Assembly: GCA_003576855.1 (NCBI GenBank)
Contig: QEVI01000009.1
Location: forward strand, 1-34,858
DNA: 34,858 nt
Source: Planctomycetota bacterium
GTDB lineage: Bacteria > Planctomycetota > Planctomycetia > Pirellulales > Lacipirellulaceae
Reading direction: 5' to 3'
Made by a program: the position numbers and the translations under genes
The notes under the pieces: model-generated
The model's input: the letters and a program-made list of their open reading frames with translations, nothing else
Told to the model about the DNA's origin: nothing
Database searches by the model: none
In this document: positions 1 through 13,762 of the stretch, piece by piece
Numbering within the stretch: position 1 is the first letter of the stretch
Layout: the number at the start of each line of letters is the position of its first letter

Positions 1-386
1 ACCTGATGACGGCCGGTTTTACGCTGCCGGAATCGCTCCGGCAGACGGCCGAGTCTGTGGGCAATCGCGCCGTGAAGCAGGGCGTCCGGCGCCTGCAACA
101 GGCCGTGGAACGGGGCGAGCGATTCAGCCGCGAACTGGAGCGCATGCACGATATCTTCCCGCCGATCGTCAATCAGCTCGTGATCGTGGGCGAAAGCACG
201 GGCCAATTGACAAAGGCCACCCGCGACATCTGCCAGCACCTTCGCCGAGAAGTCGAGCGGAAGACGACGATTCTCGTCGGCGCCCTCGAACCGATGCTGA
301 CGATTTCCCTCGCCGCGTCGATCGCCGTCATTCTACTGGCGATTTACCTGCCGATGTTCGACATGATCAACACCATGTCGAAGTAA
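1..386 (+). CDS. gspF: GspF/PilC inner-membrane platform protein, 3' part only
   Basis: This is the C-terminal part of a type II secretion / type IV pilus platform protein, the polytopic inner-membrane protein that couples the assembly ATPase to pilin extraction. About 127 residues are visible; the family is usually near 400, and the frame is open to the window edge, so the gene starts upstream and the Met at base 6 is internal. The second GspF domain is recognisable: a helical segment with the family pattern FPP-x-VNQ-x-x-x-x-GESTGQL (around bases 156-208), then a hydrophobic C-terminal helix after GALEPML that ends in a YLPMFDM-type tail, typical of GspF/PilC. It lies 28 bp before the first pilin gene and heads the visible part of the operon. 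The choice between gspF and pilC is a matter of naming here; the following genes resemble a gsp order. Confidence 0.9.
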   Translation, partial: LMTAGFTLPESLRQTAESVGNRAVKQGVRRLQQAVERGERFSRELERMHDIFPPIVNQLVIVGESTGQLTKATRDICQHLRREVERKTTILVGALEPMLTISLAASIAVILLAIYLPMFDMINTMSK

Positions 387-414
387 ATGCCTACCAACCC
401 GGGAGCCTGGTCAC

Positions 415-735
415 GTGAGTGCTCGACGCTGCGGACATTCTCTGCTGGAACTGATGGCCTTTGCGGCTGTGCTGGCGATTGTGGCCAAGCTGGCGATTCC
501 GCGGCTGGCAGGAGGCAAGCAGGACTCGGACGACGCCGCTTGCATGGCCAACGTCGGGCACATCGAGGTGCAAGCCGAGATCTGGCGGCACGACACCGGC
601 GCCTGGCCGGCGTCCGATTTGAGCGACATTGGCGGCAACATCAATTATTTTCCTTCCGGATTGCCCCAATGTCCCGTGACGGGCGCTCCCTACACGATCG
701 ACACTTCAGGACGAGTCGTCGGCCACAACCATTAA
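415..735 (+). CDS. GspG/ComGC-like prepilin (first of tandem pair)
   Basis: A 106-residue type IV prepilin-like protein. The GTG start is supported by a GGGAG ribosome site at 401-405. The short basic leader ends in Cys-Gly, followed by HSLLEL and a hydrophobic helix. Prepilin peptidase should cut after Gly, leaving Glu at +5 as expected, but +1 is His where Phe or Met is usual. The C-terminal half has a pattern shared with the next gene: DTG-x-WP, then DIG-x-N-x-NYFP-x-GLP, then P-V-x-G-x-x-YT. This recalls the GspG 'D-x-G-x-YP' region. It is probably a pseudopilin of the fibre built on the GspF platform. Which of the two tandem copies is the main subunit is inferred: this copy has the weaker leader and the unusual +1 residue, so it looks minor. 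Confidence 0.85.
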   Translation: MSARRCGHSLLELMAFAAVLAIVAKLAIPRLAGGKQDSDDAACMANVGHIEVQAEIWRHDTGAWPASDLSDIGGNINYFPSGLPQCPVTGAPYTIDTSGRVVGHNH

Positions 736-888
736 CGAGCCGTATATCGCGAAAATACTCGAAGATTTCACTTGCGTTTTCACGCACGCCGTTTGTTTTG
801 ACCTAGATTTGGGCGAAGTAGAAAAACCGATGGCCGCTTCGCTGGGTACGCCGCGGCATCGCCATCAACACGTCGTTAGGAGTATCCC
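736..888 (+). promoter_or_regulatory. AT-richer leader before the second pilin gene
   Basis: This 153-bp gap is the longest inside the visible pilin part of the operon, and its first half is more AT-rich than its surroundings. It ends with a strong ribosome site, AGGAG at 878-882, placed seven bases before the ATG at 889. A TTGACC hexamer lies at 798-803 with a weak TAGAAA at 819-824, 15 bases apart, which is a poor sigma-70 fit. The gap may hold a separate promoter for the second pilin gene, but the sequence does not settle which elements are used. Confidence 0.3.
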
Positions 889-1212
889 ATGCTCAAACGT
901 TCCGGCCTCAAGAAGCGAGGTTTCTCGCTGCTCGAATTGCTCGCCGTCGTGACGATCCTCGGCATCATTGCCGCGATCATCATTCCGCGCGTGACGGTCT
1001 CCAGCGCGACCGCCAAGCAGAAGGTCCGCGATCACCACAAGGCCACGATCAACGCAGCGGTCGAACGCTACTACATCGACACCGGAAGGTGGCCCGCAGC
1101 CAATCTGAGAGATATCGGCGCCAATGTGAACTACTTCCCGGACGGCCTGCCCACCAACCCCGTGGACGGCACCGCTTATACGCTCAACGCCACGACGCAC
1201 CGCGTCAACTAG
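889..1212 (+). CDS. GspG-like prepilin, probable main pilin
   Basis: A 107-residue prepilin. The leader MLKRSGLKKRG is strongly basic and is followed by FSLLELLAVVTILGIIAAI, a textbook class III signal: cleavage after Gly, Phe at +1, Glu at +5, then the hydrophobic assembly helix. The body carries YYIDTGRWP, then DIGANVNYFP and a Pro-Val-Asp-Gly turn, matching the preceding gene and pointing to tandem duplication. It has the best ribosome site of the pilin group (AGGAG, 878-882), its own AT-rich upstream gap, and a perfect 9-bp hairpin just after the stop. These three traits suggest it is made in larger amounts than the downstream minor pilins. It most likely forms the shaft of the pseudopilus. 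The substrate of the system, if any, cannot be told from this sequence. Confidence 0.9.
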   Translation: MLKRSGLKKRGFSLLELLAVVTILGIIAAIIIPRVTVSSATAKQKVRDHHKATINAAVERYYIDTGRWPAANLRDIGANVNYFPDGLPTNPVDGTAYTLNATTHRVN

Positions 1213-1221
1213 CGGCCCCCG

Positions 1222-1244
1222 CGGAAGTTCAGGACGAACTTCCG
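1222..1244 (+). terminator. Post-pilin hairpin (attenuator or mRNA-stability element)
   Basis: A perfect inverted repeat, CGGAAGTTC / GAACTTCCG, with a five-base loop (AGGAC), starts ten bases after the stop codon of the second pilin gene. No T-tract follows, so it is not a standard intrinsic terminator. Hairpins in this position after highly expressed genes often protect the upstream message from 3' decay or reduce read-through. That role is inferred from position. Confidence 0.6.
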
Positions 1245-1279
1245 GCCGGCGTCACGGCCGCCAGCACCGCGCTTCGCGA

Positions 1280-1768
1280 ATGGATAACCCCGCTCCAGAA
1301 CGTCACCTGAAGGCTCGGCGCGCCCGGCGCGTCCGAGCCTTCAGTCTCCTGGAGCTGGTCGCGACGCTGGCGATTATCGCGCTGCTGGCAGCGACCGGGA
1401 TCGCCACGTTCGGAACGACGTCTGTCCAGAATCTGGCTGCCGAAGGGTTTTCCAGGAAGCTAGCGCTGGACTTGTTGCAGGCCCGCCGCCGCACCATTGC
1501 CACCGGGGCCAACCACTACCTGCAACTGACGGTCGTGGCGTCCAAGACGACCGCGTACACGATGTACCGCCGGGCGGGCGGCGGCGATGTTGTCGTCGAT
1601 AAAACGCAATCCGTGCCGGACGGCGTTACCGTGACGGCAAGCCACACGACGCTCGAGTTCGATTTCGAAGGCGCGGCGCTGGCCGCCTATTCCATTGCGG
1701 TCGCCGGTCCGCAGCGAAGCTGGACCGTAACGACCACGCCCATCACCGGCGCCGTCCACGTTCAGTGA
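1280..1768 (+). CDS. GspH-like minor pseudopilin
   Basis: A 162-residue prepilin-like protein with a long basic leader (about 20 residues, Arg-rich) followed by AFSLLELVATLAIIALLAA. The residue before the predicted cut is Ala, where Gly is nearly universal; +1 Phe and +5 Glu are kept. The body, around 'LALDLLQARRRTIATG', then a beta-rich region ending in 'RSWTVTTTPITG', resembles GspH/FimT pseudopilins in size and layout. It follows the main pilin gene by 67 bp, with the hairpin in between, and precedes the I-, J- and K-like genes as in gsp operons. GspH-type proteins sit in or near the pseudopilus tip. No clear ribosome site is seen before the ATG. The family call is fairly safe; the exact subtype is less so. 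Confidence 0.8.
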   Translation: MDNPAPERHLKARRARRVRAFSLLELVATLAIIALLAATGIATFGTTSVQNLAAEGFSRKLALDLLQARRRTIATGANHYLQLTVVASKTTAYTMYRRAGGGDVVVDKTQSVPDGVTVTASHTTLEFDFEGAALAAYSIAVAGPQRSWTVTTTPITGAVHVQ

Positions 1769-1902
1769 CGCCGGCGCAAGGCGACGCCCGCAAGTTCTCG
1801 GCCTAGCCGCTCGCGTCGCAGCTTCCCAGCGTCCCGTGAGCTACTCTTGCGCAGTCCCCGATGGAACGATCGCGCCGTGGCCACGCTCGGCGTCGGCGGC
1901 GA

Positions 1903-1908
1903 GGGAGG
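1903..1908 (+). promoter_or_regulatory. Ribosome site deciding the gspI-like start
   Basis: GGGAGG lies five bases before the ATG at 1914. An in-frame GTG at 1836 would add 26 residues with no ribosome site and no signal-like sequence, so the ATG is preferred. Confidence 0.6.
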
Positions 1909-1913
1909 CCTCG

Positions 1914-2390
1914 ATGCGCTTTCAAATCACCCGATACGTGCGCTGTTCGACAGCCCGACGGCGTCCGTCGCGACGCGGATTCTCCCTGGTCGAGACGCTC
2001 GCCGCGACGGCATTGACCGCCGGCACGCTCGCGCCCGCGCTGGCGGTCATGCGCGACGCCATGGCCGTGAGCCGCGAAACGGCGCGACGCCATCTCCTGG
2101 CCAATTACGCCGTGTCGCTGCTGGAGTCGACGTCGGCGCTCACCATGCAGGATTGGACTTCCGATGTCACGACCGGCAACCTCGCTTCCGAGGGATATCC
2201 GACCATCCGGTACGAGGTGTCCCGGTCCGACAGCCCCGCCGGCGGCGGATCAACCGGGCGGCTGATGCACATCCAGGTATCGCTCTACGACGACGCCAAC
2301 GGCAACGCCACGCGCGACGCCAGCGAAAAGATTACGCGATTCCGCACCAAAGTGGCGAAGCTCACCACCTACCTCAATGAACCGAACTAA
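1914..2390 (+). CDS. GspI-like minor pseudopilin
   Basis: A 158-residue prepilin-like protein. A basic leader ends in RRG and is followed by FSLVETLAATALTAGTLAPAL, giving Gly at -1, Phe at +1 and Glu at +5. The Glu-Thr after FSLVE is common in GspI/PilV-type minor pilins. After the helix come an alpha-helical stretch (ETARRHLLANYAVSLLES) and a beta-rich domain with 'SLYDDANGNATRDASEKI', a Asp/Asn-rich stretch that could bind calcium, though this is only a guess. The 145-bp gap upstream holds no other credible gene. The 3' end overlaps the next gene by 14 bp, suggesting translational coupling. GspI is the expected partner of GspJ and GspK at the pseudopilus tip, and both follow. Confidence 0.8.
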   Translation: MRFQITRYVRCSTARRRPSRRGFSLVETLAATALTAGTLAPALAVMRDAMAVSRETARRHLLANYAVSLLESTSALTMQDWTSDVTTGNLASEGYPTIRYEVSRSDSPAGGGSTGRLMHIQVSLYDDANGNATRDASEKITRFRTKVAKLTTYLNEPN

Positions 2391-2901
2391 GCGGCGTCAG
2401 CGCGCCGCCTTCACGCTCGTCGAGATCTTCGCCGTCACGACCATCATGGCCGTGATGGCCGTCTCGACGTTCGCCCTCGTGCGGACGGCCAACGCGGCAT
2501 GGAAACGTCACCGCGACGATTCGGAGCGTCGCCGCGAGGCCATCGCCGCGCTGCAGCATGTCGTACGGCGCCTGAGGCAGGCGACCGCCGTGGCCGCGAT
2601 ATCCGGCTCGACCGACGCGTCCGGATACATCTCCGCCACGATGGCCGACGGATCGACTTCGGCCTGGGACCACGACGCCGCCGTTAACCGCATCTTCTAT
2701 GGAAATCCGACGGCGGATAATCTGCTGGCTGAGGGAATCGCTTCCATGACGTTCGTGGGATTCACAGCGAACGGCCAGACCATCGCCGCCGACCCGGACG
2801 ACATCCACCTGGTACATTGCCGCCTCGGCTACTCCCTGCCCCGGCCGGGAGGCAGCGTGACCGAATACGTGTCCGGCATGGCGTGGCTGCGGGCGTGGTA
2901 A
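2377..2901 (+). CDS. GspJ-like minor pseudopilin
   Basis: A 174-residue prepilin-like protein. The leader MNRTKRRQRAA is followed by FTLVEIFAVTTIMAVMAVSTFAL, with Glu at +5, but the residue before the cut is Ala, as in the GspH-like protein. The soluble domain starts with a long helix (KRHRDDSERRREAIAALQHVVRRLRQ) and continues with a beta-rich part typical in size of GspJ/PilW proteins. The start lies inside the end of the preceding gene, in a different frame, and there is no independent ribosome site, so translation is probably coupled. In the known secretion systems I, J and K form a tip complex; the same order here supports the call. The C-terminus, with 'YVSGMAWLRAW', is unremarkable. Confidence 0.8.
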   Translation: MNRTKRRQRAAFTLVEIFAVTTIMAVMAVSTFALVRTANAAWKRHRDDSERRREAIAALQHVVRRLRQATAVAAISGSTDASGYISATMADGSTSAWDHDAAVNRIFYGNPTADNLLAEGIASMTFVGFTANGQTIAADPDDIHLVHCRLGYSLPRPGGSVTEYVSGMAWLRAW

Positions 2902-2939
2902 CGGCACTTGCTGACGGCACAGGTTGATCGACGCATTGC

Positions 2940-3317
2940 ATGTACACGACCACTCGCCATCGACGACTTTCCGAGCCGCGCCGCGGCGCCGCGCTGGTGT
3001 TGTGCCTCAGCATCATATTCATCGTCACGCTGATCGTCGTGAACGTGCTTGACGTCATCACGCTCGAACTGTCGAGCGTTCGCAACAGCATCAATTATGA
3101 ACGGGCCCTTTATCTGGCGAACGCTGGCGTCCACGCGGTGGCCGCCGAACTGGAGGCCAGCCCCGCCTGGCGCGGCACAATCACCGACGGCGCGTTTCCC
3201 GCCGACGACAGCTATTCGGCGGTCGCCGTCAATGGCCCATCCGGAACGGTCGAAGTCACGTCACAAGGCGTTTCGGGCGACGTGACCCGCACCGTCATTG
3301 CGACGTTCCAACTTTAG
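2940..3317 (+). CDS. GspK/PilX-like pseudopilin
   Basis: A 125-residue membrane-anchored protein. The leader ends in EPRRG and is followed by AALVLCLSIIFIVTLIVVNV. Gly precedes the cut, but +1 is Ala and Glu at +5 is absent. This is the pattern seen in GspK and PilX proteins, which sit at the tip and do not need to dock onto a lower subunit. The following 'NSINYERALYLANAGVHAVAAELE' matches the ERALYLAEAG-type helix typical of PilX/GspK N-terminal regions. At 125 residues it is far shorter than a classical GspK (about 300), so it lacks the large extra domain and is nearer in size to PilX. It follows the J-like gene by 38 bp and precedes the PilM-PilN fusion by 13 bp. Confidence 0.75.
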   Translation: MYTTTRHRRLSEPRRGAALVLCLSIIFIVTLIVVNVLDVITLELSSVRNSINYERALYLANAGVHAVAAELEASPAWRGTITDGAFPADDSYSAVAVNGPSGTVEVTSQGVSGDVTRTVIATFQL

Positions 3318-3330
3318 CAACGGTACCACT

Positions 3331-4965
3331 ATGGCAGACCGACGTGTACTAGGCGACCGACGCCGCTGGCGGCTACGCACGCGGCGCGATCGTCACAGCA
3401 GCGAACAGCGCGCCGTTGTGCTTGAACTTTCGTCCAGCCAACTGACGTTGATCGAGCTGCGCAAGTCGGTTGACGGTCAGGACTCCGATGAGCTCGCGGC
3501 TTCGTCCGTCGCGTGGCGAAAATCCGCCGTCTCGCTCGACTCGCCGGAAGGAGTGGAGGAGCTAACGGCGGCTTTTCGCGAAGCGGCCCGGACGCACGAT
3601 TTGCACGGGTGCAAAGTCCGCGTCGTTCTTAGCGGCGATTACTGCGTCCTGCGCACGTTGCGAGGCGCCGTCGACGAAGTGCAACGCGAATTGCTCCAGC
3701 TTGAGCAACGTAGCCGCATGTATCTGTCGCTGGGCGTCGGCGAGAAGGTGCTCGTCAGCAGCACCTGGGCCGTTGACGCCCGGCACGCCCATGCCACCGC
3801 CGCGGTGTGCAACCAGGCGACGCTCGACGCGATTCAAGCTGCCAGCGACGCCGCCGGCATCGACGTCGCCGTCATCGAGCCCGCGCTGTGTGCACTCGCT
3901 CGTGCAGCGCGTCGGCTTGCGGAAACGCCCACCGGCGCGTACCTCTTGGTCAACGTCAGTCCCTCCAGCGTCGAAGTGGGCGTGTGCCACGAAGACCAGT
4001 TGCTGCTCGACTACCGGCCCGGCGGCCGAGCCGCGTCCACCAATCTGCTGCCCCTCTTGGAAAACCACCTCAACCGGCTCAGCCGGCACATCGGCCGGTG
4101 CCTACGCACGGCGCCGCCCGATATCCGGCAGGTTTACCTGTGCGGCGACGAGCAGTCCGTTCGTCGTGCGGCCCAGCAATTCGAGCGTCAAGCGGCCATC
4201 AAGGTCCACGTCATTAAGCCGCAGGACGTTCGAGCTACTTGGCGGTTCGCCTCTGGCGAAGGGTGCGTGTCGGCCGCGGGGCTCGGCGGCGTCCTGGCGG
4301 CCTACCTTGCCGAGGACGAACGCGGCGTTCCGAACCTCATGCAGCACATCATCGAATGCAAACGCGCGCCGCTCCGCCCGGCATTGGTGCGCAGCGCCTT
4401 GCCCCTGGCTGCCACGCTGCTAGTGGCTGCTTCGATGGCCTTCGTCAACGCCCGCCTGCAATCCGAGCTGGATGTCATGCAAACAGAACTCGACGGCCTC
4501 GCCGTCGCCGAGGCGAGATCCACGGAACTGCGCTTACAACTGCTCGCCGCCAGAGCAAAGCTTACGGAGCTCGACAAGCTGGCGGGACAACTGCCGGCCG
4601 AGCTCGGCGAAGAGCTTATCCTGAGCATCGCCGCGTGCATGCCAAGCGACGTTTGGCTTCGCCAGCTTGAAATCACCGACCGACGCCGTGCCCGCCTGCA
4701 GGGCGCCAGCTACCTGGAAGCCGGCGTCTACGACTTCGTCCGCTGGTTGGAACTGGCTCCCCGGCTCGACGAAGTGGCGCTGCGGGGCACCAGCCCCTCC
4801 ACGTCGGCCAATGGGCCGGTCACCAGTTTCGACCTTGAACTCACGATTTCCTCGGAGCATCAGCCGCCGCAACCGCACCATCGCTCCGCGGCTGCCGCCG
4901 ATGCTAGCAAGTCCCCGGTTGGCGCCGGTCTGGCGGCCGCTACGCCGTCGCTGCCAGCCGACTGA
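3331..4965 (+). CDS. PilM-PilN fusion (GspL-like assembly protein)
   Basis: A 544-residue protein joining two pilus-assembly parts. Residues about 25-340 resemble the actin-like fold of PilM: a first strand 'RAVVLELSSSQLTLIEL', a 'GIDVAVIEPALCALARAARRL' region, and 'AYLLVNVSPSSVEVGVC'. The glycine-rich nucleotide-binding loop expected near the start is replaced by ELSSSQ, so ATP binding is doubtful. A single membrane helix follows at about 352-375, then a coiled coil, then a PilN-like periplasmic domain ('MPSDVWLRQLEI', 'LEAGVYDFVRWLE'). GspL of type II systems has this same combined layout, while most type IV pilus systems keep PilM and PilN apart. The ATG at 3331 is chosen over an in-frame TTG at 3298 that lies inside the preceding gene. 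The PilO-like gene follows. Confidence 0.82.
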   Translation: MADRRVLGDRRRWRLRTRRDRHSSEQRAVVLELSSSQLTLIELRKSVDGQDSDELAASSVAWRKSAVSLDSPEGVEELTAAFREAARTHDLHGCKVRVVLSGDYCVLRTLRGAVDEVQRELLQLEQRSRMYLSLGVGEKVLVSSTWAVDARHAHATAAVCNQATLDAIQAASDAAGIDVAVIEPALCALARAARRLAETPTGAYLLVNVSPSSVEVGVCHEDQLLLDYRPGGRAASTNLLPLLENHLNRLSRHIGRCLRTAPPDIRQVYLCGDEQSVRRAAQQFERQAAIKVHVIKPQDVRATWRFASGEGCVSAAGLGGVLAAYLAEDERGVPNLMQHIIECKRAPLRPALVRSALPLAATLLVAASMAFVNARLQSELDVMQTELDGLAVAEARSTELRLQLLAARAKLTELDKLAGQLPAELGEELILSIAACMPSDVWLRQLEITDRRRARLQGASYLEAGVYDFVRWLELAPRLDEVALRGTSPSTSANGPVTSFDLELTISSEHQPPQPHHRSAAAADASKSPVGAGLAAATPSLPAD

Positions 4966-5012
4966 GCGCCAGCACTGTCCGCCCGTTCCTCGATTCCGCC
5001 AAAGTCCCCGCC

Positions 5013-5630
5013 ATGCACGATTCCCTGATCCGCAAATTTTGCGAAAGCCGCTATCGTTGGGCAATTGTTTCGACCGCTACCGCACTGTTCGCTCTGCTGG
5101 TGCTGTTGCCGTTGGTCGATGAGTTCTTTGACAAAAGAATGAGTCGTACCGATCTTGCTAGCAGGCTAGAGACTGCACGGCGGACTGCTGAGCAGCTTCC
5201 TGCGTTTGAAAAGCAGGTGGCCGGCGTACGCGAGCAGTTGGGGGCTTTCGAGGCTCGAACGATCGACGAGGCCGGCCTGGCCGGGTTTCGCAGTCGCATG
5301 GTAGACGCGGTTCGCGAGTCGGGCTGCCAGATTCGTCGCTTCGAGGTCAGCCCACCCGCGCAACGCCCCTGGATGGATCCCGACAGCCCGCTGGCGGAAA
5401 CGCAACCCAACGCCAGCGCCGCGACGCCGTTTCTGCTGGAACGGCGAAACGTCGTGCTGGCCGTCGACGGCGCCATGTCGGCCGTACAAGAACTGTTGGC
5501 GAGGCTGGAAAAAGAGCAGTGCCTGTCGCATCCACGCCGTTTGAATATGCAATCCGTCACCGGGACCGGCGAGGCGGTCACGCTCGAAATGGAGTTGTGG
5601 CTGTTCGCACTGGTGCGCAAGTCGGCATGA
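5013..5630 (+). CDS. PilO/GspM-like inner-membrane assembly protein
   Basis: A 205-residue bitopic membrane protein. A short cytoplasmic end is followed by one membrane helix (about residues 15-35, 'AIVSTATALFALLVLLPLV'), a coiled-coil stretch (about 40-75) and a small alpha/beta periplasmic domain. This layout and its place directly after the PilM-PilN fusion identify it as the PilO or GspM equivalent, which pairs with PilN/GspL in the inner-membrane ring and links to PilP/GspC. The periplasmic part includes 'FRSRMVDAVRESGCQIRRFEVSP' and a terminal 'AVTLEMELWLFAL', plausible for the ferredoxin-like PilO core. Sequence identity in this family is always low, so the call rests on layout and position. 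The secretin gene follows after 62 bp. Confidence 0.78.
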   Translation: MHDSLIRKFCESRYRWAIVSTATALFALLVLLPLVDEFFDKRMSRTDLASRLETARRTAEQLPAFEKQVAGVREQLGAFEARTIDEAGLAGFRSRMVDAVRESGCQIRRFEVSPPAQRPWMDPDSPLAETQPNASAATPFLLERRNVVLAVDGAMSAVQELLARLEKEQCLSHPRRLNMQSVTGTGEAVTLEMELWLFALVRKSA

Positions 5631-5676
5631 GGGCGTAGGGCAACGCCAATTCACGCAGCACGAACACTCGAGCGCG

Positions 5677-5692
5677 GTGTCACGGAGGACAC
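5677..5692 (+). promoter_or_regulatory. Small hairpin carrying the secretin ribosome site
   Basis: GTGTC (5677-5681) and GACAC (5688-5692) can pair around a six-base loop. The loop and the first stem base hold the GGAGG ribosome site (5684-5688) of the secretin gene, whose ATG follows at once. The site supports the start at 5693. Whether the stem affects translation is unknown; five pairs is a weak stem. Confidence 0.4.
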
Positions 5693-7699
5693 ATGCTCGT
5701 ACGATGTAACTCGGCGCGGCTCAACCGCCCGCCAGCGGCCGCTCGTCACGGCATGATGGCCCTCTGGGCCGCCGTGGCGCTAGCCGGCTTGGCGACGTGC
5801 GGCGACGCTTCGCGCGGGCAGCCGCCTGAGCTTCCCGCCGCCGCCGATCCGCTGCCGGCCCCCAGCGCTGAGCACGACGCTGACGCCGGCGAGCCCCTCG
5901 GTTCCCCGGAACCCTCAACGCCGCCTGCCCCCGTGGCAGACGACGGGCCAAAGCCGGCTCTCGCCAATGCGCTGGAGCGGCCCGGAGACGTCACGTTCCG
6001 CAACATGACGATCGAGGCCGCGCTGTTCACCCTCGGCGAACAGTGGAAAGTGAACATCGTCACGGGCAAGCAAATTGAAGGCGACGTCAACGGCGTCTTC
6101 AAGCAAGCACCGCTACGCGAAATACTCGACGCCATTCTGCTGGCCAACGGCTACAGCTACCGGCCCATCGGCGAAAGCCTCGTCATCCAGCCGACCGCGG
6201 AGGTCGGCAGCGCCAACCCGCTATTCCGTTCTCTGACGATTCCGATTCAGTACGGCAGCGTTGACGAAATCGTCTCTGGCGCCGAGCTGCTCAAGAGCGC
6301 CGGCGGCCAGATCAAGTCGTTTCCGACCGCCCGCAGCATCCTGGTCGTCGATTACGCCGACCGCGTCGAAACCATTTCAGCGTTCGTCCGGGGCATGGAA
6401 GCGGCAGCCGCACAGGCTGCCGGCGTGGCCGCCGTCGAGGCCCCCAGCCGGCTCGAAGTCGCCTACTTCCATACGCACTTCATCCCCGCGACCAGCGCCC
6501 AGCAGCCGCTGTTGACGGTCCTCAGCCCGCTGGGCCGCGTAGCGGTCATGCCCCGCGAGAACCGGCTGCTGGTGGTGGACTACGCCGCCAACCTGGAAAT
6601 GGTCGGCAAAGTGCTGGAGCGCATCGACCGGCCCCGGCCGCAGGTTCGCATCACCGCTCTGATTTACGACCTCAGTCTGGAAGACGTCGAGCAACTGGGC
6701 ATTAACTGGGGCAGCGCCGGCAAAGGCAACACGGTCGGCGCCGACGGCGAGGCGAACCAAGCGCTGGAGTTCGAGACGACCACGCTCACGCCTTTCACGG
6801 CCGGAGAAGCCGGCGGCCAGATGACCGTGCGGAGCCTGACCCGCAACTTCGACATCAACACCGTTCTGCTGCTCCTGCAAACCGCCAACGACGCCCGCCT
6901 GCTGGCCAATCCGACCGTCACGGTCATGGACAATGAATTGGCCGAATGGAAGAGCGTTTCGGAGATCCCCTATCAGCAAATCACGCAATCCGAACTCGGC
7001 GGCCAGATCGGCACTACCGCATTCAAGGAGGCGGGAATCACCCTTAAGGTGCAGCCGACGATCGCCGGCGACGGCACGATCGAAATGATGGTCGAGCCGG
7101 AATTCAGCCGCCTGGCCGGCTTCACCCCGCAAGAAGATCAGCCCATCATCGACACCCGCAAAGCCACCACCAAGGTCCGCATCGCCAACCGGCAAACGCT
7201 CGTACTCAGCGGACTGCGGCAGCGCAGCGACACCGGCGAATTCAACGGCATTCCGTTCCTCAAAGACGTGAAGTACGTCGGCTCGCTCTTCCGCTCCCGC
7301 AACACCAACGTCCGCGAGAGCGAGCTCGTGGTGTTCATCATGCCGGAACTGGTCTCCTACGACGAGCCGCAGCAGCCCCGCGAATTCCAGGCGCTCGAGA
7401 CGATCAACTGCCGGCTCGAGGCCATCCCGTATGCCGAGGGCTGCCCGGCGCCCGGCATGCCCGTTGTGTGCGCGGCGCCTCCCGAAGCGCTGCCCCCGGT
7501 CGAGGGGGACATGCCAGTTGACGAGGACTTGCCCGCTCCTGAAAGCACGCCGCCCGCCCCGTCGGCCGGCCCGATGCGACCGCCCTACGAACAGCGCTTC
7601 CGCGCAGATAACAAAACAAGCCTTCGCCCGAAGCCCGCCGCCGACGGCAACCAAAGCGAGAAAAAGCCCTCCATGTGGAAGCGGTTGTTCAGTTCGTAG
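5693..7699 (+). CDS. gspD: GspD/PilQ-family secretin
   Basis: A 668-residue outer-membrane secretin, the gated channel of type II secretion and type IV pilus systems. After a signal-like segment (about residues 20-37) and a Pro/Ala-rich linker comes an N0-like domain (about 98-168, 'RNMTIEAALFTLGEQWKVNIV'), then two N1/N2-type KH-like modules (about 180-240 and 255-320; 'MPRENRLLVVDYAANLEMV'). The secretin core spans about 320-550. Its landmarks are 'IDRPRPQVRITALIYDL', 'LLLLQTANDARLLANPTVTV', and near the end 'GIPFLKDVKYVGSLF' followed by 'ESELVVFIMPELV'. A Pro-rich tail of about 110 residues follows the barrel and could serve as a pilotin or wall contact. The start is fixed by GGAGG at 5684-5688. 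In most clusters the secretin comes before gspE or after pilP; here it follows the M/O-like gene. Confidence 0.95.
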   Translation: MLVRCNSARLNRPPAAARHGMMALWAAVALAGLATCGDASRGQPPELPAAADPLPAPSAEHDADAGEPLGSPEPSTPPAPVADDGPKPALANALERPGDVTFRNMTIEAALFTLGEQWKVNIVTGKQIEGDVNGVFKQAPLREILDAILLANGYSYRPIGESLVIQPTAEVGSANPLFRSLTIPIQYGSVDEIVSGAELLKSAGGQIKSFPTARSILVVDYADRVETISAFVRGMEAAAAQAAGVAAVEAPSRLEVAYFHTHFIPATSAQQPLLTVLSPLGRVAVMPRENRLLVVDYAANLEMVGKVLERIDRPRPQVRITALIYDLSLEDVEQLGINWGSAGKGNTVGADGEANQALEFETTTLTPFTAGEAGGQMTVRSLTRNFDINTVLLLLQTANDARLLANPTVTVMDNELAEWKSVSEIPYQQITQSELGGQIGTTAFKEAGITLKVQPTIAGDGTIEMMVEPEFSRLAGFTPQEDQPIIDTRKATTKVRIANRQTLVLSGLRQRSDTGEFNGIPFLKDVKYVGSLFRSRNTNVRESELVVFIMPELVSYDEPQQPREFQALETINCRLEAIPYAEGCPAPGMPVVCAAPPEALPPVEGDMPVDEDLPAPESTPPAPSAGPMRPPYEQRFRADNKTSLRPKPAADGNQSEKKPSMWKRLFSS

Positions 7700-7892
7700 C
7701 GAAAAACACGAACGCACCGCGTAGCGCAGTCCGCCGGCCGGCGCCGGGAAGCCCTTAACCGACGCCATTCGGCGCATCGGCCTGCCTCGACGCGGCCGGT
7801 CACCTATCTTTTTGCAGGCCCCCCTTCGGCGCGGCCCTGGCCGCCCCCCGCGCGGCTTTCCCACAATTCTCAGCCACGAGCAGCGATAGTCC

Positions 7893-8456
7893 GTGTCGCA
7901 CGCCGCCTTCCCCCGCCGTCACGTCGCCGTCCCGCTCGCCATGGCGGTCATCCTGGGGCTGACTGCCGCGGGCTGTGCGGACGATCCCGGCCTGCAAACG
8001 GCGTCCGCCAGGCCGGAAGTCCCGGCGCCGCCGGCTGCGGCGGTAACGACGGCAGTCCCTCCGGCGGCGCCCGCGCCGGCATCGCCGAATTCCCCTCCGC
8101 TGCCTGGCCCGCTAGCCACTGCAATCCGCCCCGCGGCGACCAGCCCCGATCCAGCGCCGCCGGCGTCGAACCGCCAGGCCGACTATAAGCCGCCGTTTCC
8201 GGATCGAAAGGACTTGTTCGTCCCTCCCAAACGCCAGGGCGGCGTGCGCCTCTCCGACGGCGAGACCGAGGACTCGGTCGTCCTGCTCGGCTTTGTCCGC
8301 GTGAACGAGCCGCTGGCGGTGCTTTCAGTGAACGGCGAAGTCGCCTCGATCGCCGAGGGCGCAGCGCAATATGGAATCGAGGTCATCTCGATCCAGCCCC
8401 CCTCGGTCGTCCTGCAGCGCGGCAGGCAGCGCTGGCAGGCCTCGCTTGAGAACTAG
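7893..8456 (+). CDS. PilP/GspC-like lipoprotein
   Basis: A 187-residue predicted lipoprotein with a GTG start. The signal ends in LTAAGC, a good lipobox, so Cys28 should be lipidated. A long Pro/Ala-rich linker (about 35-100) leads to a compact C-terminal domain (about 125-187) with 'VVLLGFVRVNEPLAVLSVNG', 'VASIAEGAAQYGIEVISIQ' and 'SVVLQRGRQRWQASL'. This beta-pattern, with a regulated-access turn and a final 'V-V-L-x-R-G' strand, matches the HR/PilP domain that joins the inner-membrane ring to the secretin. A lipid anchor fits PilP; a GspC would have a membrane helix and often a PDZ domain, and neither is present. The gene closes the operon, 193 bp after the secretin, instead of preceding it as pilP normally does. 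No firm promoter is seen in that gap. Confidence 0.75.
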   Translation: MSHAAFPRRHVAVPLAMAVILGLTAAGCADDPGLQTASARPEVPAPPAAAVTTAVPPAAPAPASPNSPPLPGPLATAIRPAATSPDPAPPASNRQADYKPPFPDRKDLFVPPKRQGGVRLSDGETEDSVVLLGFVRVNEPLAVLSVNGEVASIAEGAAQYGIEVISIQPPSVVLQRGRQRWQASLEN

Positions 8457-8524: not shown

Positions 8525-10222
8525 CTAAACCGTGCCGTTAGCGTCGTCGTCCAGCTCCCAAGGGCTGGTGGGTCTCGCCTCGGGCGCCGGGTGGAGTGCG
8601 GCTTCATCTTCGGCCACCCGAATCGGCACGGGTATTCGGTGGTGCAGCAGTTCGGTCGAGACCGATCGCATATTCAGCAGCAGCGCGATGACGGCCAGCG
8701 CGGGCGTCGCCAGGATCAGGATTTCGCCCTCGACTGCGGCCATGCCGCGGTCCCACAGTTCCGCTAGCGTCCAAACGGGATTCGTCAGTTGCAGCAGCGT
8801 ATAGCCAGCGTTGCGGTACTCGCGCGACATCATCTGCACGACCGTCGGCACCCCGATCGCGGTAAGCAGCAGGATCACGTGCAGCAAGAACGCCGCCGCC
8901 ATCGGCACATAGGCCCAGCGGCGAATCAGGTTGATGAGCAGGCGACCGAATCCCAAAAAGCCGACGACATACGACCACGCCAGAACAAGGAAACAAGCGG
9001 CGGTTTCGATCGGCGTCCACGTTCCGGCCGCGGCGTCTAACAGCCACAGCGCCGCCAGGCCGGCGAGCACCAGCGTCGTCAGATTGGCCACGGCGAACAG
9101 GTACCCCGAACCCGGACCGGGGTTCATCAAGCTCAACAGCGCTCTGGCGAGCGTGGATTGCGGCAGCGATCGCTGAACTCGCCGCGAGAGGTGCGGCCAT
9201 TCGCCGGTGAGCATGGCGCCCATCGCATACCAATAGAACGAGGCCATCGCGCCGCCGGCGATGATGACGTCGCTTAACGGGCCACCGCCCAGGCTTTCGT
9301 AAACCGAGAAGGCGTACAGCACGCCGCCAACCCACCCCGCAAAGCACGCCTGTTGCGCCATCATCCAACGGCGCAGCGGCGTCGAGCGGTTCTCGCTGAC
9401 GAACGCAATCTGCGCCGCCGCCGCCGCCCGCAGCAGGCCGAAGGTCGTCACGTAAACCATCATCAGGCCGAACGCAATCACCCAGAACTCCGGCTCGCGA
9501 AACACGACCGAACCGCCCGTCAGAATCGCCGTGCCGAGGCTGATGGCTCCGACGAACGCCCCGAACAACCCCAACACCAGCGCCACCGACGTCACGATTT
9601 GCGTGTGCTTGGCCCGCGCGACGGCGCCGATCAACAACGCCATCATGCACAGCATCAGCGAACCCAGCACCGCCATCGCCAGCATCATCGCCGTGGTTAG
9701 CGCATCCACGCCGCGCAACAGGAACGTAAACGCGATGCACGGGCTTACCGCGCACAAATACACCAGCATTTGCACCGTGGCGCTCAACAGCTTTCCAGTG
9801 ACGATCTGCCGCGAACCTAACGTGGTGATCGATAGCAGGTCGTACGTCTGCTCCTCCTGTTCCGCGGCCAACGATCGAAACGCCGTATACGGCACGATGA
9901 GCGCCAGCGGCAACGCCAGGATCGCGTAATAAAAAATCAACAGCCCCGGCCCGGAGGCCGCGTAGTAAATCTGCGGGCCCACCACGGCCACGCCCACGAA
10001 GCTCACCACCCAGCAGCCGATCAGCACAATGATGAACGTCACCAGGAACTGGCGGCTCTTGAGGGCCTGTCGCGTCTCCTTGACCAGAATCGGGTTGGCC
10101 CGCTCGGTCAGCGCCACCAGGCGCCGTTCCAGCCACTGCCAGGCATCCGCCCAGCGCGTCGGCGCCGCTTCCGCGCGCTCGGCGCCCGTCTCGGTGATGG
10201 TCGTCGGCGGCACGGTCGTCAT
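8525..10222 (-). CDS. ABC-2 type transporter permease
   Basis: A 565-residue polytopic membrane protein, the permease partner of the ATPase encoded just upstream. The region 'NPILVKETRQALKSRQFLV' before the first membrane helix, and 'AFRSLAAEQEEQTYDLLSITTLG' between helices 2 and 3, are typical of ABC-2 permeases found in planctomycetes. About a dozen hydrophobic segments can be counted. The C-terminal tail is polar. Its ATG overlaps the stop of the ATPase gene in an ATGA arrangement, so the two proteins are probably made at a fixed ratio. The substrate cannot be read from the sequence. The operon context, with a large exported protein upstream, suggests export or an envelope function. Confidence 0.88.
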   Translation of the reverse strand: MTTVPPTTITETGAERAEAAPTRWADAWQWLERRLVALTERANPILVKETRQALKSRQFLVTFIIVLIGCWVVSFVGVAVVGPQIYYAASGPGLLIFYYAILALPLALIVPYTAFRSLAAEQEEQTYDLLSITTLGSRQIVTGKLLSATVQMLVYLCAVSPCIAFTFLLRGVDALTTAMMLAMAVLGSLMLCMMALLIGAVARAKHTQIVTSVALVLGLFGAFVGAISLGTAILTGGSVVFREPEFWVIAFGLMMVYVTTFGLLRAAAAAQIAFVSENRSTPLRRWMMAQQACFAGWVGGVLYAFSVYESLGGGPLSDVIIAGGAMASFYWYAMGAMLTGEWPHLSRRVQRSLPQSTLARALLSLMNPGPGSGYLFAVANLTTLVLAGLAALWLLDAAAGTWTPIETAACFLVLAWSYVVGFLGFGRLLINLIRRWAYVPMAAAFLLHVILLLTAIGVPTVVQMMSREYRNAGYTLLQLTNPVWTLAELWDRGMAAVEGEILILATPALAVIALLLNMRSVSTELLHHRIPVPIRVAEDEAALHPAPEARPTSPWELDDDANGTV

Positions 10223-11166
10223 TGCACCCGCCCTTCGGTGACGTGCATGAACACATCCTCCAAGCTCTTCGTCTTGCTGCCGAACTCGACCACGGGGAAG
10301 CCCGCTTCAATCAGCTCCCGCAGCAGCGTTGCTTGTTCCTCGGGGCCGCCGTCGTGCGTGAGCATCACCTGCCCGGCTCGCAGGGCGACGCTGCTTACGT
10401 CGCTGCGGGCCTGCAGGTAATTGATCAGCACCGCTGGATCGCTGAGCACCCGCAGCCGCACCTCGCTGCGGGTGTGCGTGCGACTGCTGATCTCCTGCAC
10501 CGTGCCCACGGCCAGCAACCGGCCCTGTTCGATGATCCCGACGCGGTGGCACATCTCGGCCAGCTCCGTGAGAATATGCGAGCTGACCAGCACCGTCTTG
10601 TTGTGGTCCGCCAGCCGGCCGATCATCTCGCGAAGCTCGATCCGCGCCCGCGGATCGAGCCCCGCCGCCGGCTCGTCCAGGATCAGCACGGCCGGGTCGT
10701 GGATCATCGTGCGGCCCAGCGACAGCCGCTGCTTCATCCCCTTCGACAAGCCGTTGATCGGCTTGTCGGCCAGCGTTTCCAGCAGCGTGAATTCCATCGC
10801 GTAATCAATGGCCGCCCGTCGCTGATAGCTCCGCAACCCATACGCGCGGGCGAAAAAGTCGAGGTACTCCGCCACGTTCATGTTCTGGTACGTGCCGAAG
10901 TAGTCGGGCATGAACCCCAAGCGACGCCGCACGCGGTCCGGGTCGTCGACGACGGAAAAGCCGTCCACGAAGGCGTCGCCGTAGGTCGGCTCGTCGAGCG
11001 TCGACAGAATCCGCATGCTGGTGGTCTTGCCGGCCCCGTTAGGGCCGATGTACCCGAACACCTCGCCGGCGTAGACCTCGAAGCTCATGTCGTACACCGC
11101 CTTGGTCGGTCCGAAGTACCGATGCAGGCGTCGCACCTCGATCAGCGGGCGGCGAGCGCCCACCAT
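10219..11166 (-). CDS. ABC transporter ATP-binding protein
   Basis: A 315-residue cytoplasmic ATPase with all standard motifs: Walker A GPNGAGKTT (about residue 40), the ABC signature LSKGMKQRLSL, Walker B AVLILDEPAAGLDP, and a switch His in VLVSSHIL. The first 220 residues form the nucleotide-binding domain; the rest is an accessory domain of the DrrA/NatA/CcmA-like type. The start is placed at the ATG at 11166, with GGGAGG at 11175-11180 eight bases before it. An upstream in-frame GTG (11175) would sit directly on this ribosome site. The upstream gene ends with its stop at 11169-11171, two bases before this ATG, and the permease gene overlaps the 3' end by four bases. Confidence 0.95.
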   Translation of the reverse strand: MVGARRPLIEVRRLHRYFGPTKAVYDMSFEVYAGEVFGYIGPNGAGKTTSMRILSTLDEPTYGDAFVDGFSVVDDPDRVRRRLGFMPDYFGTYQNMNVAEYLDFFARAYGLRSYQRRAAIDYAMEFTLLETLADKPINGLSKGMKQRLSLGRTMIHDPAVLILDEPAAGLDPRARIELREMIGRLADHNKTVLVSSHILTELAEMCHRVGIIEQGRLLAVGTVQEISSRTHTRSEVRLRVLSDPAVLINYLQARSDVSSVALRAGQVMLTHDGGPEEQATLLRELIEAGFPVVEFGSKTKSLEDVFMHVTEGRVQ

Positions 11167-11168
11167 CG

Positions 11169-13445
11169 TCACCACCTCCCCTCGACGACGTGAAAACTGG
11201 CCTGTTCATCGGCGCCGTCGACCCCCAGGTCGATCCCGATCGCCTGCTGCGTAAAGGCGATGTACCTGCCCTTGCCCCACGAACGCACCAGGGCCGAGTT
11301 GATCGCCCCCAGCCGGCCCTCCATGATGCTTTGCGACGCGGTGAAATCGAAACCGGCGCCCGTGTAGCCGGAGTCGGCGCCAACCGGCGCCTCCGGAAGG
11401 TTCTCCGTAAACAGCCGGCGAATCTGCACGTTTACCTTGTCCCAGTCGGTCTCCGGCACAAGCTGCCCCTGATCGACGGGAAGATTCTCGCACCAGTACA
11501 CGCGGCCTTGGTGGTCTTCGACTGCCAAATGGGTGACGTCGACGCCGAGACGATTGACCACGCGGAGGCCGCGCGCGGTCACGCGCAGCTCCAGCTTCCT
11601 GTTCGAGGCGCCGGCCGAGACGGCCTGGTATTGCGTCGGAGTTCGCGAGGCGAGCCAGCCTCTGGTGAGCTGCTGGTCATTCGCCCAGACGAGCTCCCGC
11701 AACGGTTGGAGATTCCGCGTCCAGGTTCGATAGCCGACCGCCCACTCCGGGTACATCGGATACATCGCTTGCGAGCGAGGGATCTTCAGGCCTCCGCGCG
11801 GCGAAATGCCGGCGTAGTACGACAGCCGCCCCCAGCTAGCCGCTTCTCCCGCCCGCTGGTCCAGCAGCGTAAGCGTCCGCGCGCGGACCTTCACGCCGAA
11901 GCCATCGGCGAACAACCCGTAGGCGAATAGCACCGCCGTCGTCGCCACGGCGGCCGCCGGCACCGTGAACAGCAACATCGGCAGCTTGTTCCGCCGCCTG
12001 AGCAGCCAGTAGTTCAGCGGCCCAATCCCCACGACGAACAGCGTGATGAGTATCTGAAACATACCCACTGGCGCTACGCCGACGTCCGCAATCAGCAGCT
12101 TATTGAAGTCGGGGTTAAAGCCGTTCGGTTGATTCCCATGGCGAGTCGCCCACGATATGCGGGGCTGCAGCAGCGTTTGATTCAGTGAGACGAACAGCGG
12201 GTTGCCGGCCGGATTGAACGAACCCCCCAGGCCGGTTCGAAACGCCGTAATCGCTCCCAACCCATAGCCGCGGACAAGGAAGTGCCTCCCCGGCGGCGGG
12301 CGGAAGTAAGACCCGATCGCCTCGGCCAGCGGCGCCGAGACGATCTTCGGCAACAGCGCCAGCGCGGATTGCCCGGTCTCGAAACCCGACAGCAGCAGCG
12401 CCGCCTCGGTTGGCTCGCTGGCCCGTTCGTTCGTCGGTGGGCGCCGCCATCCCCGTGCAGCCAGCTCGCGTTGCAGGGCTTCCGGACTGTCGGCTCCCTC
12501 CGGTTCGGCGGCCTTCGGTGCGTCGGCCGCCGCGGGCGAATCCAGGGCTTCGTCAATCGTCGCCAGCCGGCGCCAATCCTGCCCTGCTTCAGTTACCCAG
12601 AGATTGCCGCCAGCACGGACCCACCGCAGCAGCCCGGTGGCTTGTTCCCGATGCCGCTCGACCAGCGTGATGAGCTCCGCGGCAGGAATGATCACGACGT
12701 CGAGCGTAGAGTATTCCAGCCAGTCGACCGGCAGTTCCGCCAGCGCCATTGGCTTGACGCTTACGGCGCTGCCGCTGTAGGCGCCCTGCAAGGCAACTTG
12801 GTAGGCGCTCGTTTGGGTGACAGTCGTTCCCGCCAGGATCACGCCCATGTTCGTCGCGCCAGGTCCGAGCTGAAATCCGCTGGCGTCTTTAACCGCCAAA
12901 AAGTCGTCGGGCCGCCCGTCGATCCATACGCGCCATCCGAGCATGTACCAATCCTGGTACTGCGGCACGAGAATCCGCCCCGACGCCGTCGTGGCGCCTC
13001 GGGGAAACAAAAACGAGTCCTCCACCTCGATCGAGCGGCCCTTGCTCGAATAATCCCCGGCGTTAAACCGCACCGTGATCCGTTGCTCCTGCGTCGTCGG
13101 TTTTGCAGTACGAACGGTTAAGTCAACCGGCCGATAGCCGTATTGGCCCGGCCAGTCGATGTTGATGCTCAATTGCAGGCCGCTTTGCGGAGAGTAACCG
13201 GCCCCTTGTGGCGAAGCTGGCAGCGTGACCAGCGAACCGTTGAAGTTATACAAGTACGTAACCGCACCGCGCGGCCCGTTGGCCACTTGGAGGTTTTGGC
13301 CGAAGTTCTGCCCCGGGCGAAGCATTGGCGTCGCCACGACCTGGCCGCTGCAAGGCCGCGCAAACGCGAGCACGAGCAGCCAAGCCGCGCATCGTTGCGC
13401 GGCGGCGAAGCAGGGCCACGTCGAACACCGCCGGAGGGGCATCAT
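11169..13445 (-). CDS. Large exported membrane protein of ABC operon (GATase-like region)
   Basis: A 758-residue protein of unknown function. An N-terminal signal (about residues 1-34) is followed by a beta-rich extracytoplasmic part. Around residues 235-300 lies a stretch ('TLDVVIIPAAELITLV', then 'LLRWVRAGGNLWVTEAG') that resembles the class I glutamine amidotransferase-like fold used without catalysis in many bacterial envelope proteins. Two membrane helices occur near the middle ('MFQILITLFVVGIGPLNYWLL' region and 'AAAVATTAVLFAYGLF'), then another beta-rich domain. The start at 13445 is preferred because its ATG overlaps the stop of the upstream small gene (ATGA); a longer form from 13502 would lie wholly inside that gene. 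Its coupling with an ATPase and permease recalls the GldG/auxiliary subunits of ABC systems, but this is inference. Confidence 0.75.
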   Translation of the reverse strand: MMPLRRCSTWPCFAAAQRCAAWLLVLAFARPCSGQVVATPMLRPGQNFGQNLQVANGPRGAVTYLYNFNGSLVTLPASPQGAGYSPQSGLQLSINIDWPGQYGYRPVDLTVRTAKPTTQEQRITVRFNAGDYSSKGRSIEVEDSFLFPRGATTASGRILVPQYQDWYMLGWRVWIDGRPDDFLAVKDASGFQLGPGATNMGVILAGTTVTQTSAYQVALQGAYSGSAVSVKPMALAELPVDWLEYSTLDVVIIPAAELITLVERHREQATGLLRWVRAGGNLWVTEAGQDWRRLATIDEALDSPAAADAPKAAEPEGADSPEALQRELAARGWRRPPTNERASEPTEAALLLSGFETGQSALALLPKIVSAPLAEAIGSYFRPPPGRHFLVRGYGLGAITAFRTGLGGSFNPAGNPLFVSLNQTLLQPRISWATRHGNQPNGFNPDFNKLLIADVGVAPVGMFQILITLFVVGIGPLNYWLLRRRNKLPMLLFTVPAAAVATTAVLFAYGLFADGFGVKVRARTLTLLDQRAGEAASWGRLSYYAGISPRGGLKIPRSQAMYPMYPEWAVGYRTWTRNLQPLRELVWANDQQLTRGWLASRTPTQYQAVSAGASNRKLELRVTARGLRVVNRLGVDVTHLAVEDHQGRVYWCENLPVDQGQLVPETDWDKVNVQIRRLFTENLPEAPVGADSGYTGAGFDFTASQSIMEGRLGAINSALVRSWGKGRYIAFTQQAIGIDLGVDGADEQASFHVVEGRW

Positions 13446-13762
13446 CTCGCAGGCGTCTCTCCGTTTGTGGGGTATTCGGTGGGCGGCGTCCGCAGCGGCC
13501 ACTTGGGCGCAGCGGTCCTTTCAATGCCGCCTCGGCTGGTACGGGCCACGATCTCCTGCGGTCCGAGCCAGCGGGCAAATACCGATCCAAGTGCGAAAAA
13601 GGCCGCCTGCACCAGCAGCGACGCGCACACGCTGACGACCCCCACCGTGACGCCGACGGCCCAGATCCGGCCAGCGATGGCTTCCCCAGCCAATAGAGCG
13701 ATCACCGCCGCCGCCGAGGCAACGACCAGCATGGTCCGAAGTGAAAACCGGGGCAGCAGCAT
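13442..13762 (-). CDS. Small membrane protein with RFSLRT-type N-terminus
   Basis: A 106-residue membrane protein of unknown function. It starts MLLPRFSLRTMLVVASAAAV, a sequence type that is very common at the N-terminus of short planctomycete membrane proteins. A second hydrophobic segment lies at about residues 33-65, and the rest is a soluble tail. The ATG at 13762 is preferred over a TTG at 13771 three codons upstream; neither has a strong ribosome site. It is the first gene of the ABC operon and its TGA stop overlaps the next ATG. The RFSLRT-type start is recalled from genome reading and is no guide to function. Confidence 0.7.
   Translation of the reverse strand: MLLPRFSLRTMLVVASAAAVIALLAGEAIAGRIWAVGVTVGVVSVCASLLVQAAFFALGSVFARWLGPQEIVARTSRGGIERTAAPKWPLRTPPTEYPTNGETPAR

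Follow-up and report, generated by a model that had tools for sequence, protein, structure and literature searches.

Type II secretion systems and type IV pili are the described systems closest to the operon analyzed here. The Xps system of Xanthomonas is encoded in the order E, F, G, H, I, J, K, L, M, C, D, and both its C protein (XpsC) and XcpP are devoid of a PDZ domain (PMC11981180). The system of Cytophaga, a Bacteroidetes 'T2SS', has been reported to diverge from the canonical type II clade (PMC6668835). With respect to genomic organization, 96.5% of type II systems are encoded in a single locus, while 99% of type IV pili are distributed over several loci (Abby 2016, PMC4793230). The present operon is located in a window of 34,858 nucleotides (the whole stretch of DNA that was analyzed), which corresponds to contig C412 in the 417-contig, 5.1-Mb assembly of a planctomycete (G000), and no description of it was found in the literature searched.

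Eleven co-directional genes on the forward strand span positions 3-8456 of the window with a tight spacing of -20 to 193 nt, including two overlapping pairs (I/J and K/L). This agrees with the gene set and the order F-G-G-H-I-J-K-L-M-D-C given in a preliminary description of the window, and the same order was found in 25 relatives, which argues against a chance arrangement. The window opens within gspF, of which the contig start leaves only the last 127 codons (3-386; PF00482, 87 bits; best family GspF, TIGR02120). Contig C253 of the same assembly ends with gspE (562 aa), followed by the first 252 codons of gspF (L054, equivalent to C253 12019-12776, forward strand), and the two pieces align with a single intact gspF in a relative (G005), approximately nine codons being absent between them. 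The ATPase gene is therefore absent from the window because the assembly is broken within gspF. The upstream search for gspE or pilB as well as pilT that had been proposed thus yielded gspE but not pilT, and a PilT retraction ATPase was encoded neither in the operon nor by a conserved neighbor. As gspE is itself preceded by a receiver-domain gene (R, L054:9878-10273, forward strand), the first gene of the operon, the full order is R-E-F-G1-G2-H-I-J-K-L-M-D-C, and homologues of GspE, GspF, GspG, GspL, GspM and GspD are all present in one locus. The terminal position of the secretin and the ring protein, previously considered unusual, is shared by the Xps operons of Xanthomonas, Comamonas and Skermanella (PMC11981180); direct inspection showed the Xps layout in Comamonas and, with some genes shifted, in Skermanella and Acidisoma. 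On the opposite strand, the operon is adjoined by the permease and the ATPase of an ABC transporter and by a large protein (8525-13502), which are kept beside it in about 15 relatives.

The genes downstream of gspF encode two short pilin-like proteins and four minor pseudopilins. G1 (415-735, 106 aa) matched GspG and ComGC profiles under their cut-offs and is kept in relatives. G2 (889-1212, 107 aa), the likely major pseudopilin, is strongly conserved and present as tandem duplicates in some relatives (L060, L068, L073, L115); its best family was GspG (TIGR01710, 46.6 bits compared to a cut-off of 88.9), which was matched by 14 of 14 G2 orthologues. An additional, divergent G2-like pilin gene is located upstream of R (L054:9211-9858, reverse strand) and occurs in several of the window's relatives. 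The minor pseudopilins comprise H (1280-1768; GspH/FimT/ComGD-like, N_methyl above cut-off, GspH 0.0015, ComGD 1.8e-4), I (1836-2390; prepilin motif RRGFSLVETL, weak XpsI and PilV matches, conserved position), for which the true start is probably the ATG at 1914, J (2377-2901; weak GspJ match, TIGR02599 1.4e-7) and the short K (2940-3317, 125 aa; PilX_N-like, PF14341 0.0012, conserved in order). The profile search produced no T2SSK match for K, which lacks the large GspK domain. Two prepilin peptidase genes are located elsewhere in the genome. ATPase E scored 564 bits with PilB (cut-off 676) and 526 bits with GspE (cut-off 630), a comparison that is not like for like, as the PilB model also spans the N-terminal domain, and F of a relative reached 254 bits with GspF (cut-off 424). 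None of the NCBIfam equivalog cut-offs for GspD, GspE, GspF, GspG and GspM or, in the case of E, PilB was reached.

L (3298-4965) consists of a PilM-like cytoplasmic domain, one transmembrane helix and a PilN-like periplasmic domain, and the PilM-PilN fusion in the layout of GspL that had been recognized earlier was present in all 25 aligned loci, with PF05137 (PilN) matched by 25 of 25 orthologues. The AlphaFold model of L (pLDDT 83.6) had PilM as its top PDB match (E 1.7e-16) and cytoplasmic EpsL further down (7e-10). Profile searches of the PDB with L and M as queries hit PilN and PilO, respectively, and neither GspL nor GspM. The INLLP-like linker of L was rejected as demonstrating a separate fusion of PilM and PilN, since GspL carries a similar stretch. 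In one relative, a stop codon within the PilM-like half breaks L into two neighboring ORFs that share the same frame (L058:9267-10847). M (5013-5630; GspM/PilO-like) matched XpsM (NF040576, 35.6 bits compared to a cut-off of 60) as well as PilO in the PDB profile search (5.4e-6), and among its orthologues XpsM was matched by 21 of 26 and PilO by 12 of 26. The secretin D (5693-7699; PF00263, 144 bits) scored 204 bits with PilQ and 183 bits with GspD (cut-off 351), both under cut-off, and alignment lengths suggest three N-domains, one fewer than in GspD and one more than in PilQ. Profile-profile comparisons, indicative given their small reference sets, placed L equally close to XpsL and PilN, M nearer to PilO than to XpsM and D equally close to PilQ and GspD, and matched C weakly to XpsC.

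The last protein, C (7893-8456), had been described as a lipoprotein with a PilP-like domain, and both features held. The lipobox cysteine is invariant in 23 of 23 homologues, in place of a GspC-type transmembrane anchor. By sequence, C had no Pfam match and no useful match in the profile search of PDB sequences; its model (domain pLDDT mostly >90) matched GspC-HR (3oss_C, Z 8.6, 61 residues, rmsd 2.7), tied with PilP folds (2ivw, Z 8.1, and another with Z 8.0). C is thus predicted to hold a GspC-HR/PilP fold at residues ~125-187. Absence of a PDZ domain, by which the preliminary description had set C apart from GspC, was dropped as a criterion because XpsC and XcpP lack this domain as well (PMC11981180).

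The mixture of type II and type IV pilus signals noted previously was apparent in the family profiles, which are split between the two: type II secretion is indicated by F, G, the XpsM-like M and the encoding in one locus, type IV pili by the PilM-like half of L, the PilO-like M, the PilQ-like D, the short PilX-like K and the lipoprotein C. With a probability that we put at roughly 60%, the operon codes for a single, complete machine of the type IV filament superfamily that spans the envelope and works like type II secretion; most likely it represents a type II variant of planctomycetes for the export of folded proteins. We prefer this reading because one locus holds the complete set, with an assembly ATPase and without a retraction ATPase, because its order matches that of Xps except for the two G genes and the C/D swap, and because GspF and GspG are the best families for F and G2. 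It is further favored by the conserved order in relatives, the XpsM matches of M, the GspC-HR-like fold predicted for C, the coexistence of separate pilus loci in the genome, the MshE-type motif of E and the co-occurrence of R with the operon. The unreached equivalog cut-offs count against it, as do the PilN and PilO profiles obtained for L and M, the slightly higher PilQ score of D, the missing large domain of K, the PilP-like lipoprotein character of C and trees that do not group the operon with type II systems. In such a type II-like machine, ATPase E, anchored via L and M to the platform F, would drive repeated assembly of a short periplasmic pseudopilus composed of G2 and G1 with a tip of H, I, J and K, which would push folded periplasmic proteins outward through the secretin D, with lipoprotein C coupling D to the inner-membrane parts via its HR domain.

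Alternatively, the operon might encode a compact type IVa pilus that extends beyond the cell and serves adhesion or attachment to surfaces, its pil genes being gathered in one operon (pilB-pilC-pilins-pilMN-pilO-pilQ-pilP). In addition to the PilM-like model of L, the PilN and PilO profiles of L and M, the marginal PilQ preference of D, the PilX-like K and the lipoprotein C, the higher score of E with PilB, a model spanning the N-terminal domain as well, agrees with this explanation. The absence of pilT from the locus, the length of G1 and G2 of just ~106 aa and the Xps type II gene order speak against it, and we consider it unlikely, though the most probable of the alternatives. The window's genome also contains separate pilus and Tad-type loci, with PilT-type ATPases at other loci, which makes the operon an extra machine. 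One of the separate pilus loci (L080:7053-18162, on contig C26 of the same assembly) carries PilB, PilC, PilM, PilO and secretin genes and adjoins a histidine kinase and a response regulator.

Orthologues of secretin D (44-68% identity) were present in 25 of the 58 sampled relatives, separated by a wide score gap from other secretins, and the order E-F-G1-G2-H-I-J-K-L-M-D-C was the same in almost all of their loci, those ended by contig breaks being without the parts beyond the break. One locus (L079) had no C behind D. In Rhodopirellula, TBK1r and several uncultured planctomycetes, C is divergent and situated just upstream of R and E, and the remaining order is kept. A rearranged operon with G2 to D ahead of E-F-G1 was observed in Pirellulaceae KatS3mg111 (L128). 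In one complete genome (G017), an IS-like transposase gene interrupts gspE (L076:3489-4600), so the system is probably lost in this strain. The distribution is patchy even inside the window's own genus; phylum-wide, at least 10 of 294 genomes contained a match to the L profile, a lower bound as few candidates were scored per genome. When named genomes of bacteria and archaea were scanned with the ATPase alignment, planctomycete loci were recovered down to ~55% identity, followed by a gap below which the proteins were at most 41% identical and nearly all from other phyla; the best matches outside Planctomycetota likewise did not exceed 41%. The named close matches belonged to Adhaeretor, Botrimarina and Bythopirellula, which we take to be Lacipirellulaceae. 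As far as searched, the locus is confined to Planctomycetota, in line with the earlier suggestion, and tblastn of D against plasmids gave no match.

This distribution also bears on the possibility, raised in the preliminary description alongside secretion, that the operon serves the uptake of DNA or polymers. The short pilins and the short K resemble ComG proteins, and planctomycetes have been reported to take up large polymers. However, ComEC was near-universal irrespective of the operon (57 of 59 genomes), the operon itself was missing from 33 of the 59, and no comE-like or sugar-transport gene was a conserved neighbor, which renders an uptake machine improbable and leaves DNA uptake in particular without backing from the relatives.

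R was recognized here as a new component of the locus. It encodes a protein of ~130 aa, opens every locus whose upstream end is present and matched Pfam Response_reg in 12 of 12 cases. Using a threshold of E <1e-45, R was detected in 25 of the 26 genomes with the operon and in none of the 33 genomes lacking it; the sole exception (G028) has a contig that ends inside the operon. Both its position and this co-occurrence tie R to the operon. The switch lysine is missing from all 44 distinct R sequences and the phospho-acceptor aspartate from 26 of the 44, consistent with a degenerate receiver. Loss of the aspartate alone was dropped as the mark of a pseudo-receiver, as 18 of the 44 sequences keep this residue, and the missing lysine is the stronger mark. 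An MshE-type cyclic-di-GMP motif (NF053729, 61 bits) is present in ATPase E, and cyclic-di-GMP probably tunes the machine. This motif and the degenerate receiver would probably switch the machine on or off, possibly through contact between R and E.

In trees of the ATPase as well as of the ATPase and platform combined, the operon formed its own clade (support 100) on a long stem outside the classical type II clade (100) and the Xps clade (100) and thus represents a planctomycete lineage distinct from both. A single standard class holding all of the parts, the outcome that the preliminary description had named as contradicting a hybrid, was not found, although the nearest neighbor of the operon clade shifts with sampling. 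Forcing the operon and type II systems together gave p 0.030-0.034 in the AU test with 27 rows and p 0.39 with 21 rows of wider sampling; the marginal rejection obtained with the former was dropped, as it vanished with the different, wider row set. The matching order and XpsM/XpsL profile similarity could also reflect an ordinary Xps-type type II system transferred horizontally from Pseudomonadota, which we regard as improbable, given an Xps ATPase/platform clade that excludes the operon, the long stem of the latter and an identity of 41% between its ATPase and the Xps-type Comamonas protein.

A more far-reaching version of the secretion reading would be a machine confined to Planctomycetota that was derived from type IVa pili separately from classical type II secretion and is controlled jointly by a phosphorylation-independent pseudo-receiver of its own and an ATPase that senses cyclic-di-GMP. 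We put this combination forward tentatively, with the balance tilting against it. If the independent origin were true, it would join the Bacteroidetes system as a further example of secretion evolving repeatedly from pili. Export of enzymes across the outer membrane by planctomycetes is poorly known, and a compact, defined locus in cultured genera (Botrimarina, Adhaeretor and Rhodopirellula) makes this question accessible to gene deletion.

Among the known systems, Xps-type type II secretion shares with the operon the one-locus organization, the order E-F-G-H-I-J-K-L-M followed by C and D, a PDZ-less GspC with an HR domain, an L with a PilN domain and an M of the XpsM family. In contrast to Xps, the order after M is D-C (or C is divergent upstream), G is doubled, C is a lipoprotein, K has no large domain, L contains a full-size PilM-like half, R is an extra component, and ATPase and platform branch as a clade of their own. 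Classical type II systems (E. coli gspC-O, Pseudomonas xcp) are similar in their component set, the fused L, the HR domain of C, the secretin and a locus free of a retraction ATPase. They differ by having C and D first, a membrane-anchored GspC, a large GspK and four secretin N-domains compared to the apparent three of D, and the operon scored under every cut-off of their profiles. Type IVa pili (Myxococcus, Pseudomonas PilMNOPQ/PilBC) resemble the operon in the PilM-like fold of L, the similarities to PilN, PilO and PilQ, the PilP-fold lipoprotein and the PilX-like K; unlike these pili, the operon is a single unit with PilM and PilN fused, very short pilins and neither PilT nor PilY1 in the locus. 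The Bacteroidetes 'T2SS', set beside the operon on the basis of its published description, is likewise a secretion-type machine of the superfamily in another phylum.
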